From: Dyella psychrodurans
GTDB taxonomy: Bacteria > Pseudomonadota > Gammaproteobacteria > Xanthomonadales > Rhodanobacteraceae
Assembly (NCBI RefSeq): GCF_003363265.1
Contig: NZ_QRBF01000002.1
Location: 207,826 to 271,825, forward strand
Reading direction: 5' to 3'
DNA length: 64,000 bases
The notes below the pieces were generated by a model that searched no databases, was not told the DNA's origin, and saw only the letters and a list, made by a program, of their open reading frames with translations. Every line of letters starts with the position of its first letter. Position 1 is the first letter of the stretch. Both the position numbers and the translations under genes were made by a program. Positions 2,490-11,518 of the stretch are shown in pieces.

Positions 2490-3329
2490 TTAGCGGCGTA
2501 CCACGCGGAACTGCAGCACGCGACGGTCGTCGGCTTGCGTGACGTGGAATTTGAAATCGCCGATGTCGATCTCTTCGCCCACTTCCGGCAGATGTCCGAA
2601 TTCGGAAGTGGCCATGCCGCCGATGGTGTCGAACTCTTCGTCGGAGAAGGCGGCACCGATTTCCTCGTTGAAGTCGGCGATCGGGGTGAGCGCGTCCACG
2701 ATCCATTCGCCCTCGGCCTGGGCGTGCATCAGATCGGGTTCTTCCTCGTCGTCGTGCTCGTCGTCGATCTCGCCGACGATTTCTTCCAGTACGTCCTCGA
2801 TGGTGATGAGGCCGGCGACGCCGCCGTATTCGTCCACCACCAGCGCCATGTGGTTGCGGCTGCGGCGAAACTCCGCCAACAGCACGTTCAGGCGCATCGA
2901 TTCGGGAATCAGTACCGCCGGGCGCAGCATCGAGCGGATGTCGAAATCCGCGCCATTGCCGAAGTACTTGAGCAGATCCTTCGCCAGCAGGACGCCAAGG
3001 ATCTCGTCCTTGTCTTCGCCATGCACGGGGAAGCGGGAATGCCCGGATTCGACGACCTGGGCAAGGATGTCGCTGAGCGGTGCGTCGACGTCGATCATCA
3101 CGATCTGGACGCGCGGCACCATCACGTCGTCGACATTCAGTTCGGTAACTCGCAGCGCGCCTTCCAGCATGGGAAGGGTATCGGCGCTGAGCAGGCCATT
3201 GGCCTGGGCGGTGCGCAACTCGTCGATCAGTTCTTCGCGGTTGCGGGGTTCGCCGGAAAACAGATGGCCCAGTCGATCCCACCATTTTCGGTGGACCGGG
3301 CCGCTGGTACTGCCAGGGTCCTCGTTCAT
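2490..3329 (-). CDS. corC: CorC/YbeX-type CBS-pair protein
   Basis: A 279-residue soluble protein starting at MNEDPG. Two CBS domains span about residues 60-185 (VDDVMVPRVQIVMID; SRFPVHGEDKDEILGVLLAKDLL; VDEYGGVAGLITIEDVLEEIVGEI), followed by an acidic linker and the CorC_HlyC C-terminal domain (DFNEEIGAAFSDEEFDTIGG). There are no membrane helices, so this is the soluble YbeX form (292 residues in E. coli) rather than the membrane-anchored form. YbeX is linked to magnesium efflux and ribosome metabolism and usually sits next to ybeY. Here ybeY lies about 6.7 kb upstream on the same strand, with the polysaccharide operon in between. Confidence 0.92.
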   Translation of the reverse strand: MNEDPGSTSGPVHRKWWDRLGHLFSGEPRNREELIDELRTAQANGLLSADTLPMLEGALRVTELNVDDVMVPRVQIVMIDVDAPLSDILAQVVESGHSRFPVHGEDKDEILGVLLAKDLLKYFGNGADFDIRSMLRPAVLIPESMRLNVLLAEFRRSRNHMALVVDEYGGVAGLITIEDVLEEIVGEIDDEHDDEEEPDLMHAQAEGEWIVDALTPIADFNEEIGAAFSDEEFDTIGGMATSEFGHLPEVGEEIDIGDFKFHVTQADDRRVLQFRVVRR

Positions 3330-3457
3330 TACTCTTGTAAGTTCTGCCCGGAGAGGGCGGAACAAACAGTCTAGCGGAAAAACTATGACGATTCAGAACA
3401 AGGCCTTGCCGAGGGACGGGAGCCCCTCACCGGGCTCCGGGCCGACAGCCTCTCGCC

Positions 3458-4972
3458 TTAGCGGGAGGTCGCCGCCAGCGGCCGAGGCGAGGATGCCTTG
3501 GCAAGGCCCGCCGTGTTGGCCGCGGGGGCCTGGCGCCAGCCGCCGCCCAGAGCCTTGTAAAGGTTGACCTGGTTGACCGCCTGCGCCAGCTCCAGGCTGA
3601 CCAGCTGCTGCTGGGCGCCATAGAGCGACCGCTGGGCGTCCTCGGTCGAGATGTAGTTATCCAGGCCTTCCTTGAAGCGCTCCTGCGAAATCGCATAAAC
3701 GTGTTGCGATTGATCCACGAGTTCCGCCTGGGATTTCAGGGCGGGCACGATGTGGTCGCGGGTGACCAGCGCGTCAGCCACCTCGCGGAACGCCTCCTGC
3801 ACGGTGCCTTCGTAGGCGGCAACGGCTCCGGTGTCGCGGGCCTTGCTGGCGGCCAGGTTGTTCCTGTTCTTACCCCAGTCGAACAGCGGCATCGCGCCGG
3901 AGGCTCCGACCGTCCACGCCCCCGAGCCGGCCGTGAACAGGTTCGACAGGCCTCCACTCAAGACGCCGAGCACGCCGGTCAACGCAATGCTGGGGAAGAA
4001 TGCGGCGCGGGCGCGCCCGATGTCGGCATTGGCGGCGCGCAGCCGGTCTTCGGCGGCGATGACGTCGGGGCGGCGATCCAGCAGCGAAGACGGGAGGCCA
4101 GCGGGAACATCGACCAGCAGCGGCGCCTGCCAGGGGCGAGGCGAGTCGTAGCCGGCCGGCAGCGGCTGGCCGAGCAATACCGCCATGGCGTTGATGTCCT
4201 TAGCGACGCGAATCTCCATGCTCTGCACGTCGACCTGGCCAGAGTCGACCTGGGTCTGGGAACGACGCATGTCGAATTCCGATGCGCCGCCGTCGCGGTA
4301 GGCCTTCTGCATCACCTGGGCATGTTGCTCCTGGCCGGTCGTCGTCTGTTCGGCCAGCAGCAGCAAGGTGCGATCCGCCTGGAGCGACAGATAGGCATCG
4401 GCCACTTCGCCGATCAGCGCGATGCGCGCTGCTTGATAATCCGCGGCGCTGGCCGCCGCCAGCTTTCCGGACTCGTGCGCAATCGCGCGCTGATGGCCGA
4501 AGAAATCCAGCTCATAGCTCGTCATGCCCGCCTGCACCTGATACGTGTTGAACGTGGTGGCCGTGTTGCGATTGTTCTGGATCGGGCCGAGCAGGCCGGC
4601 GGCGGGCTGTTGCGACATCGCCGGCAGGCGTTGGCGTCCGGCATAACCCTGCAGGTCAATTTCCGGGAAAAGGTTCACACGCGCCGCGCCGTAGTCCGCA
4701 CGTGCCGCGGCCATATTGGCGGCGGCCACGCGCAGGTCGCGGTTGTTGTCCAGCGCGATCTGGATCAGCTGCTGCAACACCGGATCCTTGAAGAACACGC
4801 GCCAATCCTGATCGACCATGTCGGCCGAGACATCGGGCGCCGTCGGCGTTGTCGCGCTGCTCGACGGATAGTTGTTGGGCACCGGCATCGCGGGCCGCTG
4901 GTAAGTCGGTTCCATGGAGCAGCCGGCCAGCAGACAACTGGCGAGTGCGGTGGAAAGGAGCAGGGGCTTCAT
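3458..4972 (-). CDS. NodT/TolC-type outer-membrane efflux lipoprotein
   Basis: A 504-residue outer-membrane factor with a lipoprotein signal (MKPLLLSTALASCLLAGC, acylated Cys about 18) and the family motif EPTYQRPAMPVP. Two outer-membrane efflux repeats follow (about 70-270 and 280-470), containing DLRVAAANMAAARADYGAA, YELDFFG, RRPDVIAAEDRLRAANADIGRARAAFFPSI and LFDWGKNR. The tail is Ala/Pro-rich. It would form the trimeric channel-tunnel of a tripartite exporter. It begins 14 bp after the glycosyltransferase stop and is the last gene of the four-gene operon. No RND pump gene is adjacent, so it may serve the polysaccharide synthase and HlyD-type adaptor. That partner assignment is inference; the family call is firm. 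Confidence 0.92.
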   Translation of the reverse strand: MKPLLLSTALASCLLAGCSMEPTYQRPAMPVPNNYPSSSATTPTAPDVSADMVDQDWRVFFKDPVLQQLIQIALDNNRDLRVAAANMAAARADYGAARVNLFPEIDLQGYAGRQRLPAMSQQPAAGLLGPIQNNRNTATTFNTYQVQAGMTSYELDFFGHQRAIAHESGKLAAASAADYQAARIALIGEVADAYLSLQADRTLLLLAEQTTTGQEQHAQVMQKAYRDGGASEFDMRRSQTQVDSGQVDVQSMEIRVAKDINAMAVLLGQPLPAGYDSPRPWQAPLLVDVPAGLPSSLLDRRPDVIAAEDRLRAANADIGRARAAFFPSIALTGVLGVLSGGLSNLFTAGSGAWTVGASGAMPLFDWGKNRNNLAASKARDTGAVAAYEGTVQEAFREVADALVTRDHIVPALKSQAELVDQSQHVYAISQERFKEGLDNYISTEDAQRSLYGAQQQLVSLELAQAVNQVNLYKALGGGWRQAPAANTAGLAKASSPRPLAATSR

Positions 4973-4986
4973 GGTTATCTCCAAAG

Positions 4987-6957
4987 TCATCGCGGAGGAA
5001 GGGATACGCCGGCCGCGCGCATCAATTGCGCAAAGGCGCGCAGCGGGCGGGCTTTGACGGCGATGTTGTGCGGCGTATGGCAGAAGATCAGCCTGATCAG
5101 TCGATGCCGCATGGCTTCGTTCGGCTCGAACTGCACGCACAGTCGATGCTTGCTCAGGCGCGCGACGCGCGCGGGAACCCAGCCCACGTCGGGAACGGAG
5201 ACTTCGAGCATTTCCCCAGGCACCGGCATCACGGGGCTATGGCGCATGGCCGCGCCGCTCAGCGAAATGTCGATGAACTCGCTGGACTGCACGTGATGGC
5301 CTTGCCGCCAGTATGTCGCATGCGAATAGGGGAAACGTTCCTCATGCCGCAGGCGCGGCAGGTCCACGCAGGCGATGATCGCGGCCAGATCCAATACGAG
5401 CGCGATCAGCGTCCATGCAAGATTGAAGATGATGCCGCCACTCATCGGCGCGGTCAGGATGGTGTTTGCCGCGCCGGCCTGCAGGAACAACATCAGTGCG
5501 ATAAAGAAGCCGGCCAGTTTCCAGTGCACCACCACCTTGCTGCGGTCGAGCCCTTTGGCGGTCACCTTGAATGGACGTCCAAACGGACGGAAACATGCCG
5601 AGATCATGGTCATGGTCACCGCGTAGGCGGCTACCAGCTGCGTGACTTCCGTGAAGATCGGCAGCGTTTTGCGTTCGGTGATCCATGGGCCGTAGAACCA
5701 GAACCCGAGCAGCGCGGGCATGCCGTAGAACATGAACGCTTGCGGCGTGGTGTAGAACGCGGCGATGCCGAAGTACCAGTACAGCACGGGCGCAATCAGC
5801 ATCAGCAGCAGGAATGGCTTGCCGATCCAGTGCAGCATGCCGTGGACGTAGTGCAGGCGATCGATCAGGTTGTAGCCTTTGCCGCGCAAGGGGCCGTCCT
5901 TGAGCATGGCCACCTGCATCGTGCCCAGGCACCAGCGGCCGCGCTGGTTGATGTATTCGATCAATCCTTCGGCCGACAAACCCACGGAAAGGCGTTCGTT
6001 GAGCCAGCGCGTGATGTAGCCGTTCCTGCGAAGCACATAGGTGGTGTGGATGTCCTCGCACACGCTGTCGGTGGGGAAGCCACCCGCTTCCGTGATCGCC
6101 CTGCGCGACACCACGAACGACGTGCCCACACAGAAAGCGGAATCCCATGCGTCGCGCGACGGCTGGAACACGTCGAAGAACACGCGCTGCTCGTCCACCC
6201 AGCTGTCGGTGGCGCCCAGGTTGTGCTGAATCGGATCGGCGTTGTAGTAGAACTGCGGCGTTTGCACCAGCGCGACTTTGCGCTCGTGGAAGAGGCCCAT
6301 CACGCGGTAGAGGATGTTCTTCTGCGGCGCGAAGTCGGCATCCAGCACCAGGATGTAGGGTGCGTTAGTTTCTTGCGCAGACAGCTTCAAGCCGTTGTTG
6401 AGATTGCCGGCCTTGGCGTGGCGGTTGTCGGGGCGACGCAGATAGTGGACGCCCATGCGCGCGCAGTAATCGCGCAGCCAGTCGCGGCGTGTGTCGTCCA
6501 GCACCCAGACGTTGACGTGCGGATAGTCGATCGCTTTCGCGGAGACGATGGTTTTTTCCAATATCTGAAGGTCTTCGTTGTAGGTGGCGATGAACACATC
6601 GACCGCGGGGACGTCGCGGCCGGCTGCGCGCAAGCGCGCTTCGCCTGCATCGGCGAAGGGGCGCGAGTCGCGCCTGCGCACCATCACGACGATGGTCGCC
6701 AGCGTGTAGACCACGGAGACCATCTCGAAGGCGTAGAACACATAGGACCACACGCTCGCGAAACCGTGAGTCGCATCCGGCAAGGTATCGTTGGTGCGCC
6801 ATATGGCGTAGCGCAACAACAGCACGCCGGAGAACAGGCCGAACACGAGCCGATCAACCGGCCGATGCGGGTTGCCGAAACGCGCCATGCCGACACCGAA
6901 CAGCAATGTCAGGCCAAGCAGCTGCCATAGCGTGATCTGATCGACCGGAAAGTTCAT
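4987..6957 (-). CDS. GT2 cellulose-synthase-like polysaccharide synthase with C-terminal PilZ domain
   Basis: A 656-residue inner-membrane processive glycosyltransferase. Two N-terminal helices (about 10-55) precede further helices and a catalytic domain with D153/D154, the DAD triad at 206-208, a CED motif (300-302, in the position of the usual TED) and QRGRW at 338-342. At least four later helices form the translocation channel. The C-terminal PilZ domain has both c-di-GMP motifs: RHEER (537-541) and DISLSG (563-568). It resembles BcsA and the Sinorhizobium mixed-linkage beta-glucan synthase. Its ATG overlaps the stop of the preceding gene (ATGA), so the two are translationally coupled. No bcsB, bcsC or alg/pga genes are nearby. 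The polymer cannot be deduced; a beta-glucan is the best guess. Confidence 0.93.
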   Translation of the reverse strand: MNFPVDQITLWQLLGLTLLFGVGMARFGNPHRPVDRLVFGLFSGVLLLRYAIWRTNDTLPDATHGFASVWSYVFYAFEMVSVVYTLATIVVMVRRRDSRPFADAGEARLRAAGRDVPAVDVFIATYNEDLQILEKTIVSAKAIDYPHVNVWVLDDTRRDWLRDYCARMGVHYLRRPDNRHAKAGNLNNGLKLSAQETNAPYILVLDADFAPQKNILYRVMGLFHERKVALVQTPQFYYNADPIQHNLGATDSWVDEQRVFFDVFQPSRDAWDSAFCVGTSFVVSRRAITEAGGFPTDSVCEDIHTTYVLRRNGYITRWLNERLSVGLSAEGLIEYINQRGRWCLGTMQVAMLKDGPLRGKGYNLIDRLHYVHGMLHWIGKPFLLLMLIAPVLYWYFGIAAFYTTPQAFMFYGMPALLGFWFYGPWITERKTLPIFTEVTQLVAAYAVTMTMISACFRPFGRPFKVTAKGLDRSKVVVHWKLAGFFIALMLFLQAGAANTILTAPMSGGIIFNLAWTLIALVLDLAAIIACVDLPRLRHEERFPYSHATYWRQGHHVQSSEFIDISLSGAAMRHSPVMPVPGEMLEVSVPDVGWVPARVARLSKHRLCVQFEPNEAMRHRLIRLIFCHTPHNIAVKARPLRAFAQLMRAAGVSLPPR

Positions 6958-8219
6958 GGCGTGTTCTCCGCGCTGGCGATCGGTCGCCCTGTGAAGGGAT
7001 TCCAGCCTTTGGCGGCCAGAGCGGCCCAGGCAGTCGCGCCCAGGTGCGGGTAGTGGTAGTAGAAAAAGTCGGCGTAGGTCGACGTGGGGCCGATGGCGAA
7101 ATCCGTGCTTATACGCGGCTGCGGCGTGGCGTAGAGCATGCCGTCGTCGCTGCGCTGCGCGGCGAGCAATTGCCAGAGACTGTCGGGCACCTGTTTTCCG
7201 CTGGCCTGCATGGCGGCGGCGGCTTGTGCACTGCCTTCGGTCCATATGCCGTCGGGTTGACGCCGATAGCCATAACCTTCGCCGCTGCGATGCTGTGCTT
7301 CGACCCATGACCAGACCTGATTCCAGTCGGCGGGATGGGGATGAAAGGCGAGCAGCGGCCAGAGTTGCTCATCGAGGCCGGACTTGTCGCGCGACAAGGT
7401 TTTTCCATCATCCAGCGTTCCGACCAGGAAGCGATGTTGTGCGCCATCCCACATCGTGTTGACGAAGTCGCCGGCGATCTTCGCTTGTTGCACAAGCGTC
7501 GCGTCGTTGGCGTCGCGGCTCGCCCAGGTGGCCGCGGCATAGACATCGATGTTGTGCTCGGTCGCTTTCCAGTGCTGTGCGCGTTGCGCGTTGTCATAGC
7601 CGAACAGGCCGCCTTCATACGCCGCGGGCCCGGTACTCGCGGTGTGGGCCTGGATCCAGTGCAGCTGAGCGACAGCGGCATCCAGATAACGCCGATCGTG
7701 CGTGTTGTCGTAGACGGTCAGCATCAGCAAGGCTGCCCACGCCACGTTGCCAGTCGCGGTGCCTACCTGATAAGGATCCTGGCTCCAGTAGTTGCCCTTG
7801 CTCTGCCAGTAGCCCGGCAATTCGACTTTGCCGCCCTTGATGGCGCCTGCTCGATAGGCATTGCGCAGACGACCATCTCCAAAGGACGGGTCGTGTGCGG
7901 CAGCAAGCAATAATGCGTCTGCGATGCGTTGCGCTTGTTCCGGACTGCCGCAGGCGCTGAGCGCAATGCCGGCCAGTGCGTTGTCGTAGACGAATGCCAC
8001 GTTCTCCAGTGCGCGTATTGCATCATTGCCTTTTAGGCTCGGATAACTCGCCAGCAACATCGGGCCGTTTCCCGGTGCCGATGTGGCTGCCGAACGCAAG
8101 GCGGAGCAACTCGACTCGGCAAGCTGCTGCCGGGTAGCGTCGGTTGCGTGAAGGGTGGCGGAAGCAACCAGTGTGAGAATCAGACCGATGTTTACAACAT
8201 GACGCCATCGCGAGGACAT
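6954..8219 (-). CDS. Exported six-hairpin (alpha/alpha barrel) glycosidase-like protein
   Basis: A 421-residue protein with a clear signal peptide (hydrophobic SRWRHVVNIGLILTLVASAT, cleavage near LHA) and an AAGGAG ribosome site 7 bp before the ATG. The mature part consists of repeated helical hairpins typical of an (alpha/alpha)6 toroid, with aromatic/acidic patches such as TEHNIDVYAAATWASRD, MWDGAQHRF, GLDEQLWPLLA, GIWTEGSAQAA and STYADFFYYHYPH. It is not an obvious GH8 member (BcsZ type), so the exact family is unresolved. It lies 21 bp after the HlyD gene and overlaps the synthase gene by 4 bp. By analogy with BcsZ it may trim or edit the nascent glycan in the periplasm; that role is inferred. 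Confidence 0.75.
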   Translation of the reverse strand: MSSRWRHVVNIGLILTLVASATLHATDATRQQLAESSCSALRSAATSAPGNGPMLLASYPSLKGNDAIRALENVAFVYDNALAGIALSACGSPEQAQRIADALLLAAAHDPSFGDGRLRNAYRAGAIKGGKVELPGYWQSKGNYWSQDPYQVGTATGNVAWAALLMLTVYDNTHDRRYLDAAVAQLHWIQAHTASTGPAAYEGGLFGYDNAQRAQHWKATEHNIDVYAAATWASRDANDATLVQQAKIAGDFVNTMWDGAQHRFLVGTLDDGKTLSRDKSGLDEQLWPLLAFHPHPADWNQVWSWVEAQHRSGEGYGYRRQPDGIWTEGSAQAAAAMQASGKQVPDSLWQLLAAQRSDDGMLYATPQPRISTDFAIGPTSTYADFFYYHYPHLGATAWAALAAKGWNPFTGRPIASAENTP

Positions 8220-8240
8220 GCGTACTCCTTCGATAAGGCT

Positions 8241-9524
8241 TCAGCGCAGGCTCGCTACCACGCTTCGACCAGGTGCGCAGGAAACCGGGCCGGAGTCGTT
8301 TGCCGCACTGTTGTCATCCCACTGCGCGAGCGCGTAGACGGAGCCGTCTTCGGCATAGGGGAAAGGTGCGCTGAAGCTGTTTTGCAGCGACTCGGTAACT
8401 TTCGGTAGCAGTTGTGTGATGTGTGCATCGCGCGGACGGCTGGATTCGTTTACGCGCACGCGCAACTCGGTGCCTATGTTCAGGCGCGAAGCCATGCGAG
8501 AAGGAAAGACCGCAACGACATCGCTTTTGCGGCAATCGGTGGCACGCACCAGGGTTGCGCCAGCAGTTACCTGCGTGCCGACTGGCGCAATGACTTCTTG
8601 CGCCGTACCGGGCGCATAGGCTTTGACGTCGTAGTCGGATAGCGCGTGGACGCGATCCTGTTCGTGCCCGATCAGCTGATTGAGATTCGTCAGTTGATTG
8701 TTCAGGGCATCGGCCTGCGACTGTTCATCCTTGATGCTGTTCTGCAGGTCGGCACGACGTTGCGTCAGCTGCGGAAGTTGGCCATTGCTGTCCTGACCGG
8801 CGGAAACATACACGCCGCGTTTGGCGGCGGCGATGCCCGCACTGATGTTCTGGGCGTTCTGATCCAGTGCATCGGCCTCGCTGCGTGCCGCGTCGGCTTC
8901 GCTACGCGCTTCATCGACGACGGCTGCGCTGATGGCGCCGTCGCGCTCCAGTGCCATGGCGCGCGTGTACTTGGTATCGAGTTCCTGCAGCTTCTCCGAG
9001 GTCGCGTCTTGCTGGGCCTGAAGGGCTTCGTAGGAATTCTCAAGCTGTGCCACGCTGGCATGCTGGTATTTCTGATATTGCTGCGTGGTGTAGTCGAGCA
9101 TGCGCTGGTCGGCCTGAAGACGACTGTCGAGATCGTCGAGATGGCTTTGCAATTCCAGACGCTGCGTGAGCATCGTGGTCAATGAGTCGTGCGCAACGGT
9201 CGCATTCTTGATGACGGCGACTGTCTCGCCCGGCTTGATCGGTTGTCCGTTCTGCGCGTATTGCGCGCTGACGGTGCCGCTGATCGGCGTGGTGATGAGA
9301 ATCGCCGGCGCATTGAGAATCGCACGCGTGGCGTCGCCGGAGACCCACGGCTCGAACAACGTGGACAGCAACAACCATCCAATGAACGCCAACAAGGCGT
9401 AGCCGGCGAGACGCGGTACGACGGCGAAAGGCGATGGCTTGGCAGGCTTGATCTCACGAATAGGTGGAGGTGTGGCATGTGGCAAGCGTTCGCTGGGTTC
9501 TCTGGGAAGCAATTCGGTCTTCAA
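8241..9524 (-). CDS. HlyD-family membrane-fusion (periplasmic adaptor) protein, TTG start
   Basis: A 427-residue protein with one N-terminal membrane anchor (about 38-57), a first lipoyl half (ILITTPISGTVSAQYAQNG, PGETVAVIKN), a long coiled-coil hairpin (about 105-300, rich in Q/E/A/D) and the second lipoyl half/beta-barrel (YDVKAYAPGTAQEVIAPVGTQVTAGATLV). The only start fitting the domain is TTG at 9524, preceded by AGAGG with 9 bp spacing. Adaptors of this type bridge an inner-membrane transporter and a TolC-like channel. Here it is the first gene of the operon containing the GT2 synthase and an outer-membrane factor, so it probably bridges those two. The family is firm; the partnership is inferred from context. 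Confidence 0.9.
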   Translation of the reverse strand: MKTELLPREPSERLPHATPPPIREIKPAKPSPFAVVPRLAGYALLAFIGWLLLSTLFEPWVSGDATRAILNAPAILITTPISGTVSAQYAQNGQPIKPGETVAVIKNATVAHDSLTTMLTQRLELQSHLDDLDSRLQADQRMLDYTTQQYQKYQHASVAQLENSYEALQAQQDATSEKLQELDTKYTRAMALERDGAISAAVVDEARSEADAARSEADALDQNAQNISAGIAAAKRGVYVSAGQDSNGQLPQLTQRRADLQNSIKDEQSQADALNNQLTNLNQLIGHEQDRVHALSDYDVKAYAPGTAQEVIAPVGTQVTAGATLVRATDCRKSDVVAVFPSRMASRLNIGTELRVRVNESSRPRDAHITQLLPKVTESLQNSFSAPFPYAEDGSVYALAQWDDNSAANDSGPVSCAPGRSVVASLR

Positions 9525-10020: not shown

Positions 10021-10518
10021 TTAGATGTCACGCTCGATCGCGTAAGGGTCGGCAATGCCAAGTCCAGCAAGCACCCGCTTTTCAAGTGCTTCCATCGCTT
10101 CGGCTTCTGCGTCGTCGATGTGATCGTAGCCAAGCAGGTGTAACACGCCGTGCACGGTCATGTGCGCCCAGTGGTCATTGGCGAACTTGCCTTGTTGCTT
10201 CGATTCGCGCGCCACCACTGGCGCGCAGATCACCAGGTCGCCGATCAGCGGCAAGGTCAGGCCCGGCGGGAGTTCCGCCGGAAACGACAACACGTTGGTC
10301 GCATAGTCTTTGTCGCGGTAGGCATGATTGAGCTTGCGGCCTTCTTTGGCATCAACGATGCGGATGGACAGCTCGGCAGCCTTGCGGCGCCTGGCGCCGC
10401 GCAGCGCGGCGTCCACCCATCGTTGAAAGCTGCGTGCAGAAGGCAGCCCGGTACGTGCTACACCGTAGTTGACATGAACGATATGCGAACCTGATGGCTG
10501 CGACTTACTTGCCGCCAT
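10021..10518 (-). CDS. ybeY: Endoribonuclease YbeY
   Basis: A 165-residue zinc-dependent RNase needed for 16S rRNA 3'-end maturation and late 70S quality control. The metal-binding signature [11 protein letters not shown] is at 123-133 (His 123, 127, 133), and the substrate-fold motif [10 protein letters not shown] is about 75-84. The chosen start (MAASK) overlaps the end of phoH by 14 bp, consistent with translational coupling of ybeZ and ybeY. An ATG 30 bp further upstream would add ten basic residues. In most gammaproteobacteria ybeX follows directly; here it is separated. Confidence 0.96.
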
Positions 10519-11518
10519 TGCCTTGCTTCCCCGAACCTTGCTCGCCATTGTTCGATTCCTCGAAGGCTTCGTAAGCACGCACGATCTTGGCCACCAGAGG
10601 ATGGCGCACGACGTCGCGCGAGGTAAAGAAAGTGAAGCTGATGCCGTCCACGCCGCGCAGTACTTCAACCGCGTGACGCAGGCCCGAGCGCACGTGGCGG
10701 GGTAGGTCGATCTGGCTGACGTCGCCGGTGATCACCGCCACGGAGCCGAAACCGATGCGCGTGAGGAACATCTTCATCTGCTCGACGGTGGTGTTCTGCG
10801 CTTCGTCGAGAATCACGTACGAGTCGTTGAGGGTGCGTCCGCGCATGTAAGCAAGCGGCGCGATCTCGATCACGTTGCGTTCGATCAGCTTGGCGACTTT
10901 TTCGAAGCCGAGCATTTCGTACAGCGCGTCGTAAAGCGGGCGCAGGTACGGGTCCACTTTCTGCGACAAATCACCGGGCAGGAAGCCGAGCTTTTCGCCT
11001 GCTTCCACTGCGGGGCGAACGAGCAGCAAGCGTTGCACGCGATTGGCTTCGAGTGCTTCGACCGCACTCGCTACCGCAAGATAGGTTTTGCCTGTGCCGG
11101 CCGGTCCAACGCCGAAGTTGATGTCGTGCGTGGTAATTGCATGCAGGTAGCGTGCCTGATTCGAGCCGCGGCCTTTGATGACGCCGCGTTTCACCTTGAT
11201 GGTGACTTCCTGTGCGCTCTCGGCCGCTTCGTCGGTGATCGCTTCGATGCCCGAATCGGCAAGCTGCAGATTGATCTTCGCGCCCGTCAGCGATTCGTTT
11301 TCCGTCGCTGCGTAAAGTGCCTTCAGCACTTTTTCGCCCGCGCGTGCGGCGCCCTCTTCGCCGATCACCTGAAAGAGATTGCCGCGGTGATCGATTTCCA
11401 CGCCCAAGCGCAATTCCACCTGGCGCAGATGTTCGTCAAACGGGCCGCACAGGTTGGCGAGCCGGGCGTTGTCTTCCGGATCGAGGGCGAAGTCGCGTTG
11501 GTTCAAGCCGTTGGTCAT
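10505..11518 (-). CDS. phoH: PhoH-family ATPase (YbeZ)
   Basis: A 337-residue cytoplasmic ATPase. An N-terminal KH-like/RNA-binding region (about 30-75) precedes the PhoH ATPase core with Walker A GPAGTGKT at 138-145 and Walker B VILDEAQN (Asp238-Glu239). The tail is Gln/Gly/Asn-rich. YbeZ interacts functionally with YbeY in RNA metabolism, and the two genes overlap here. It lies 67 bp downstream of the GNAT gene, same strand. Confidence 0.95.

Follow-up and report, generated by a model that had tools for sequence, protein, structure and literature searches.

A probable operon-encoded synthase-adaptor-TolC-type glucan exporter in Dyella psychrodurans, with a fused counterpart in Variovorax

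The window analysed here is a stretch of 64,000 nucleotides from the soil bacterium Dyella psychrodurans (contig NZ_QRBF01000002.1, positions 207,826 to 271,825). On its minus strand, at window positions 3458-9524, it carries an operon of four genes, which encode a periplasmic adaptor, an exported (alpha/alpha)-barrel protein, a glycosyltransferase family 2 (GT2) synthase with a PilZ domain, and an outer-membrane factor (OMF) of the NodT type. The operon probably encodes a dedicated tripartite synthase-adaptor-TolC-type glucan exporter. The evidence consists of gene content, gene order and recurrence, the fold classes of the products, a docking motif at the tip of the adaptor, the grouping of the operon OMFs, and a natural fusion of synthase and OMF in Variovorax, all read from sequences. 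From these we infer complex formation, glycan passage through the OMF, activation by cyclic di-GMP (c-di-GMP), beta-glucan chemistry and activity of the barrel protein.

The operon and its products

The features of the operon are as follows.

8241..9524, minus strand: adaptor, an EmrA/HlyD-type periplasmic adaptor (membrane-fusion protein) of 427 residues with a TTG start (HlyD_3, AlphaFold model, EmrA and EmrAB-TolC matches in the PDB)
8928..8963, minus strand: hairpin-tip motif RAMALERDGAIS, that is, RxxxLxxxxxxS at adaptor residues R188, L192 and S199 (published OMF-docking motif, PMC3391258; modelled turn 195-199)
6954..8219, minus strand: exported (alpha/alpha)-barrel glycosidase-like protein of 421 residues (model, structure matches, relatives; no Pfam or NCBIfam family)
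4987..6957, minus strand: PilZ-GT2 synthase of the cellulose-synthase superfamily, 656 residues (domain search, motifs)
5932..5946, minus strand: QRGRW catalytic motif of the synthase (sequence motif)
5083..5352, minus strand: PilZ domain of the synthase, c-di-GMP receptor type, with motifs RHEER and DISLSG (Pfam, residues 653-742 of a 773-residue open reading frame)
3458..4972, minus strand: NodT/OprM-type OMF lipoprotein of 504 residues (Pfam, NCBIfam, sequence)
4919..4930, minus strand: OMF lipobox LAGC (sequence)

The genes are packed, with gaps of 21 bp, -4 bp (a 4-bp overlap) and 14 bp. The original prediction, made from the sequence alone, had proposed this arrangement of four same-strand genes, and its coordinates, strand and gaps were all reproduced when the open reading frames were read again. 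It had also named the four products as a HlyD-type adaptor, an exported alpha/alpha-barrel protein, a GT2 synthase with complete catalytic motifs and both PilZ motifs, and a NodT/TolC lipoprotein, without an RND or ABC pump, and each of these assignments agrees with the searches described below. The 773-residue open reading frame that starts at 7308 was rejected as the synthase gene: its first 117 codons are the barrel gene read out of frame, and the true start is at 6957. Six relatives that match only this 117-codon part are barrel-only or degraded loci.

The synthase matches the GT2 domains and PilZ in Pfam (PilZ 35.5 bits, cut-off 22.5), and the motifs DAD, QRGRW, the gating loop FKVTAK and the PilZ motifs RHEER and DISLSG can all be read in its sequence. 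Its closest solved sequence in the PDB is BcsA. The QRGRW motif and the gating loop indicate an enzyme of the processive type, and a beta-glucan is its likeliest product. The closest characterised synthase that we compared, at 38-40% identity, is encoded by a Sinorhizobium meliloti pSymB gene that we take to be bgsA, its record being unannotated. The second aspartate motif is DDT in the six barrel-linked synthases printed and DDG in the five others printed, which include BcsA and the putative BgsA. The TED motif reads CED in the window's synthase; CED is also found in Rhodanobacteraceae and some Variovorax, TED in most Cupriavidus and Burkholderia, and SED in most Bradyrhizobium.

These relationships raise the question of whether the operon could belong to a diverged Bcs or Bgs system that has its true exit port in a BcsC-like or other protein encoded elsewhere. 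The kinship with BcsA and the putative BgsA speaks for this explanation, as does the pSymB adaptor-synthase pair, which has no adjoining OMF match. The synthase, however, scores 378.3 bits against the CelA equivalog, below the cut-off of 699.1; neither BcsB nor BcsC is found among the four genes or the flanking genes; and the BgsA row lies outside the clade that holds all barrel-linked synthases (SH-like approximate likelihood-ratio test, SH-aLRT, 100). We rejected membership of Bcs on the CelA score and the missing BcsB and BcsC, and membership of BgsBA on the position of the BgsA row and the presence of PilZ, and we regard an exit port of this kind elsewhere as hardly credible.

The adaptor matches Pfam HlyD_3 at 38.4 bits. 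Its model, built from 35 relatives, shows an N-terminal helix (residues 36-61), the strands of a split lipoyl-type domain, and a long alpha-hairpin in which an 82-residue helix (113-194) leads into the turn at 195-199. In the structure search, the best PDB match is EmrA, followed by EmrAB-TolC and MacA chains. The motif RxxxLxxxxxxS docks HlyD, AcrA, MacA and MdsA to OMFs, as mutation and cross-linking show (PMC3391258, PMC4069162; all sources are cited here for the passages available from them). The window's adaptor has the exact motif at its modelled turn. In a hand-picked alignment (A4) of 35 adaptors from OMF-bearing loci, the three tip positions read RLS in 13 (window included), RMS in 18 and HMS in 4, which gives arginine in 31/35, leucine or methionine in 35/35 and serine in 35/35. 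Of nine adaptors from OMF-less loci, the six Bradyrhizobium ones have R, then L or M, then S at these positions, and the three others end in P or G (alignment A5, of 15 rows, was likewise picked by hand).

The OMF scores 145.6 bits against OEP in Pfam and 385.7 bits against outer_NodT in NCBIfam (cut-off 210.05), and its closest solved sequence is OprM. No RND, ABC or MFS match was found within 40 kb of the operon, and the nearest ones on the contig lie at 222 kb (RND), 41 kb (MFS) and 173 kb (ABC); the absence of a pump noted earlier for RND and ABC thus extends to MFS. On this ground, membership of a tripartite efflux pump was rejected. The genome contains 19 NodT-family OMFs over the cut-off, 16 of which have an RND, MFS or ABC match within 10 kb (counted with 21, 55 and 46 match rows, respectively), and the operon OMF is one of the three without. 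A pump-less NodT OMF is exceptional in this genome, though the operon OMF is not unique.

A confident model built from 52 aligned relatives shows the exported protein as an (alpha/alpha)-barrel (predicted local distance difference test, pLDDT, 91.7; best VIA Z = 30.8). No Pfam or NCBIfam family, GH8 included, matches it at E 0.01. The top structural matches, at 7-14% identity, are methylmannose polysaccharide hydrolase, dextran dextrinase, bacterial glucoamylase, cellobiose 2-epimerases and GH76, isomerases and terpene cyclases are also listed, and the matches within about 5.5 Z units extend to AGE-type epimerases, terpene-cyclase-type and other folds; the glycoside hydrolase (GH) family labels (GH76, glucoamylase-type) are those we presume for these entries. 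The lack of a GH8 entry among the 50 structural matches listed proves nothing. Seven acidic residues are invariant in the 52 relatives (D79, D148, E221, D225, D283, D323 and E328). Going by the model, we take the protein to be a putative glycan-active enzyme of an unnamed family. Seven barrel matches from Bradyrhizobium that contain an internal stop (L114, L119-L122, L124, L125) are absent from alignment A3, as are, for brevity, 21 other loci.

Recurrence of the cassette and of the barrel gene

Using two peptide patterns, we collected 79 loci from GTDB genomes through the barrel protein, drawn from the best 80 of 134 confirmed, with 54 lower-scoring ones left out; linkage to the barrel gene is therefore given by construction, and barrel-less systems are under-sampled. 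A synthase lies beside the barrel gene in 66 of the 79 loci. An OMF is also present in 49 of the 66, all from Rhodanobacteraceae or Burkholderiales, and the other 17 are alphaproteobacterial. The adaptor adjoins the synthase in 64 of the 66, and the remaining two loci end at a contig edge. The 79 loci are composed as follows.

40/79: adaptor, barrel, synthase and OMF as four separate genes (OMF frame broken in L071, synthase frame broken in L111)
6/79: synthase and OMF fused, with adaptor and barrel, all Variovorax
1/79: all four genes, with broken synthase and OMF frames (L095)
2/79: barrel, synthase and OMF at the contig start (L103, L106)
17/79: adaptor, barrel and synthase without OMF (14 Bradyrhizobium, Fulvimarina, Phyllobacterium and one Rhizobiales)
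1/79: adaptor remnant, barrel and shortened OMF (L056)
12/79: barrel gene alone

The cassette has the same gene order in Rhodanobacteraceae, Variovorax, Cupriavidus, Burkholderia, Ralstonia and Pandoraea, and the repetition of a four-gene order across several genera is more than chance. Direct searches with the synthase found it in 4 of 369 genomes of the class (1e-80) and in 12 of 197 genomes of the family (1e-120), the window's genome being included in both counts, and in 3 of 299 genomes of the family of Variovorax genome G425 (1e-120), two of them Variovorax and the third G786. Besides the window's genome, the search of the class found G237, which has an adaptor-like gene but matches neither barrel nor OMF in the fetched stretch, and G314 and G409, whose fetched stretches match none of adaptor, barrel and OMF. 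The system is patchily distributed. Beside these loci, an Agrobacterium tumefaciens plasmid typed as conjugative (pAspH13-3a, 456146-461079; L133) has the order adaptor-synthase-barrel, and a Leptolyngbya plasmid match lists a synthase with no neighbour named adaptor or glycosidase.

In the window, the operon is flanked by genes that we take, from their sequences, to be ybeY (with phoH and miaB further out) and corC.

10021..10668, minus strand: ybeY-containing open reading frame, upstream flank of the insertion site, context (name read off the sequence, without a family search)
2490..3365, minus strand: corC-like gene, downstream flank, context (name read off the sequence, without a family search)

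These flanks were matched only in Rhodanobacteraceae-type loci, and therefore the cassette recurs in other surroundings elsewhere. The 23 loci from Rhodanobacteraceae or similar bins comprise 11 complete operons, 11 barrel-only loci and one scar (L056), and the slot between ybeY and corC is occupied in 9/11 of the complete operons and 7/11 of the barrel-only loci (L054, L063, L064, L067, L068, L069 and L074, with the barrel gene alone between the two flanks). The scar retains the final 84 codons of the adaptor, the barrel gene in full and an OMF without its first 84 codons. Its contig is titled Candidatus Eremiobacteraeota; since its miaB, phoH and corC proteins are 93-94% identical to those of the window's genome, either the phylum label looks wrong or the bin looks contaminated.

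The lone barrel gene is constrained. The median ratio of non-synonymous to synonymous substitution rates (dN/dS) is 0.196 where the gene stands alone (10 pairs, 5 loci) and 0.152 in complete operons (21 pairs, 7 loci), in a sample of 5 of the 11 barrel-only and 7 of the 11 complete Rhodanobacteraceae loci. The predicted enzyme therefore seems useful to the cell even where this machine is absent. A second GT2 gene, in a frame of about 870-940 residues, is present in the window's genome (G000:C9:328443-329366) and in most relatives; in the pieces from three relatives tested against NCBIfam, it is CelA/PgaC-like and below all cut-offs. It might supply glycan in barrel-only genomes. A barrel relative also occurs away from a synthase on an Azospirillum plasmid (L134), and one plasmid record each of Streptomyces and Kitasatospora, genera without an outer membrane, contains a match.

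The persistence of the barrel gene bears on another explanation, in which the chain stays in the periplasm or exits otherwise and the OMF removes short oligomers freed by the barrel enzyme. In its favour, the barrel gene outlasts the other members, standing alone in 12/79 loci, and its constraint there would perhaps make periplasmic glycan processing the older task; TolC-type tunnels are, moreover, generally known to pass mostly small molecules and proteins. Against it stand the QxxRW motif and gating loop of the synthase, a member of the processive cellulose-synthase superfamily, and the XcsAB-TolC precedent for an extracellular polymer (PMC7582838). We consider such a periplasmic fate unlikely.

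Phylogenetic trees of 50 hand-picked rows each were examined for the OMF, with reading frames chosen by tblastn, and for the synthase, with a quick method. In the OMF tree, one branch separates the 28 operon OMFs from 22 others, 19 of them from this genome; the Variovorax OMFs are placed with those of Rhodanobacteraceae (92/96) and away from those of the other Burkholderiales. In the synthase tree, Variovorax and Rhodanobacteraceae again group together (99), as do the OMF-bearing synthases (90). Because both trees share the same grouping, an agreement that rests on few splits, synthase and OMF are suggested to have been inherited jointly, and transfer between the Rhodanobacteraceae and Variovorax groups was perhaps part of this co-inheritance.

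These trees also help to judge whether the adaptor and OMF belong to ordinary efflux, working with a pump whose gene lies elsewhere, and are neighbours of a stand-alone synthase by chance. In favour of this, drug-pump adaptors, EmrA among them, provide the closest solved folds for the adaptor, the nearest solved sequence to the OMF is OprM, and it is well known that one OMF can serve several systems. But the gene order is conserved across Rhodanobacteraceae and Burkholderiales, the synthase and OMF trees group alike, the two proteins form a single open reading frame in Variovorax, and no RND, MFS or ABC match lies within 10 kb. A chance neighbourhood of this sort is, in our judgement, very unlikely.

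A synthase-OMF fusion in Variovorax

The six Variovorax loci among the 79 all encode synthase and OMF in one uninterrupted frame. A search of the genus of genome G425 found 34 synthase copies in 33 of 100 genomes. We examined 32 of the 34 copies (the other two had no fetched locus), and in all 32 a stop-free frame joins the synthase to the OMF; between the two lie a linker, a hydrophobic stretch and a lipobox that ends in GC. One of these copies, L201, is truncated at the edge of its locus.

L075, L076, L077, L079, L080, L113, L171-L173, L175-L203: fused synthase-OMF loci, Variovorax

The linker between the conserved synthase tail and the lipobox cysteine is 44, 45, 47, 48, 50 or 63 residues long, with the frame kept throughout, and measures 45 residues in 24 of the 31 copies with an anchored synthase tail. 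In the same DNA, a stop occurs in the +1 frame of 30/32 copies and in the +2 frame of 1/32. No tetramer resembling a Shine-Dalgarno (SD) sequence precedes any in-frame start in 22/32 copies, and L176 has no start codon in the scanned stretch. In the 24 copies with 45-residue linkers, the ratio of non-synonymous to synonymous polymorphism (pN/pS) is 0.17 for the synthase tail, 0.33 for the linker and 0.56 for the hydrophobic stretch; amino-acid changes are thus suppressed relative to silent ones in the tail and linker, and less so in the hydrophobic stretch. Both halves are recognised in the fused open reading frame of L075: the Pfam matches are GT2 families and OEP, and the NCBIfam score for NodT, 307.5 bits, is above the cut-off. 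The adaptor and barrel genes precede the fusion in all ten fetched loci (nine genomes). Genome G425 has two whole copies of the cassette (L207, L208) on different contigs, with differing linkers.

The orientation of the fusion is sensible: the synthase ends with PilZ on the cytoplasmic side, and a signal placed after it would therefore export the OMF. As a link of some tens of residues hardly spans the distance from inner to outer membrane, the fusion is predicted to be cleaved at the lipobox by signal peptidase II. AcsAB of Komagataeibacter is a precedent for such a fusion among cellulose synthases. A natural fusion that appears to link a polymerase to its exit channel is the strongest new evidence for the exporter. 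It is possible, at somewhat less than an even chance, that the Variovorax polyprotein is cut by signal peptidase II into equimolar halves and that three synthases serve one trimeric channel via the adaptor, the window operon being the unfused form with the polymerase in the pump's place of a tripartite exporter. The fusion thereby yields a prediction on processing and stoichiometry.

The proposed machine and known systems

In the proposed exporter, the PilZ-GT2 enzyme would polymerise a beta-glucan-like chain from a nucleotide sugar and extrude it through its own transmembrane channel, and c-di-GMP, once bound to PilZ, would open the active site in the manner known from BcsA. With its one N-terminal helix as anchor, the adaptor would guide the chain across the periplasm, and the tips of its hairpins would dock onto the trimeric NodT-type OMF, through which the chain would leave the cell. 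The barrel protein may trim or clear glycan in the periplasm, the place held by BcsZ or XcsC elsewhere. The earlier suggestion that a synthase replaces the pump, with an adaptor and a TolC-type channel as its partners, is supported by the gene order, the lack of a pump, the OMF grouping, the tip motif and the Variovorax fusion.

Several observations weigh against this exporter. Export and product are deduced from sequence in every member found. The search proposed for Rhodanobacteraceae and Alphaproteobacteria recovered the full cassette in the former and, beyond them, in Burkholderiales, but the fetched stretch showed no OMF match in 17/17 alphaproteobacterial relatives; barrel gene and OMF are both missing beside the adaptor-synthase pairs L135, L136, L165 and L169. 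The barrel gene lacks a synthase in 13/79 loci (12 alone, one scar). The predicted proteobacterial operon with all parts and PilZ control exists in the window, but PilZ is not universal and the barrel gene is often alone. Pfam found no PilZ match in one synthase each from Bradyrhizobium (L116), Fulvimarina (L128) and Variovorax (L075), the last being the one fusion tested, and RxxxR was not found in the synthase tail of L075; c-di-GMP control may be lost or replaced in these three. The adaptor model is confident locally and not globally (predicted template modelling score, pTM, 0.47). At the tip, leucine is replaced by methionine in 22/35 adaptors and arginine by histidine in 4/35, and leucine is called the most conserved residue in PMC4069162. 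The one-branch grouping of the operon OMFs has support of 83/84, which is suggestive and not strong. In Variovorax, an SD-like tetramer precedes some in-frame start in 10/32 copies, so that internal translation initiation is possible in some of them, and in L206 (genome G450) a frameshift lies inside the OMF part, which continues in another frame.

The probable exporter appears to be a variant of a proposed, unproven export principle; what is apparently new is a proteobacterial operon with its own OMF, and the fusion. Neither such an operon nor a synthase-OMF fusion was found in the titles and abstract openings of the literature searched, in which subscription papers were mostly outside coverage. 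The operon and the fusion turn the open question of whether a TolC-type tunnel can be the exit for a synthase-dependent glycan into one of single-gene deletions, and carriers of the cassette include named Dyella, Cupriavidus and Variovorax strains.

Tripartite pumps such as EmrAB-TolC share with the window operon the adaptor fold (EmrA), a NodT/OprM-type OMF and the tip-docking motif, but they have an MFS, ABC or RND transporter where the operon has a polysaccharide synthase. The Bcs systems share a BcsA-type processive GT2 enzyme, PilZ, the gating loop and a periplasmic glycosidase-like partner, whereas the operon lacks BcsB and the tetratricopeptide-repeat (TPR)/beta-barrel protein BcsC and has a TolC-type OMF instead. 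BgsBA of Sinorhizobium meliloti and Rhizobium etli resembles the operon in having a HlyD-like protein beside a GT2 synthase, and differs in that no barrel gene or OMF match lies beside the putative pSymB bgsA and that the window synthase has PilZ. The available passages of PMC9495663 and PMC5567048 describe BgsB as HlyD-like and its partner synthase as activated by c-di-GMP, in agreement with the synthase and HlyD-like pair that had been cited for Sinorhizobium, and according to PMC5567048, BgsA makes a mixed-linkage glucan and is without PilZ.

The closest system is XcsAB-TolC. The cyanobacterial synthase-HlyD-TolC model for cellulose that had been mentioned with the original prediction is described for Thermosynechococcus vulcanus, with XcsA, XcsB, XcsC and a TolC-like protein (PMC12430437, PMC7582838), the last being essential for cellulose production (PMC7582838). 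In the passages available from it, a 2025 review presents XcsAB-TolC export as a model without experimental validation whose parts are not in one operon, calls the relevance of this route to operon-organised clusters open, and notes that the first three Xcs genes sit together in Synechococcus elongatus and Nostoc punctiforme (PMC12430437). A PilZ-GT2 synthase, a HlyD-like adaptor and a TolC-like OMF are common to both systems and are all encoded in the window operon; the endoglucanase-like XcsC and the barrel protein are likened by place and description, not by sequence. The T. vulcanus genes are scattered, with the OMF outside an operon, whereas the window type is a four-gene operon in two proteobacterial groups, and the Variovorax type differs further in that synthase and OMF are fused. 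The operon is best read as a proteobacterial, operon-encoded counterpart of XcsAB-TolC.

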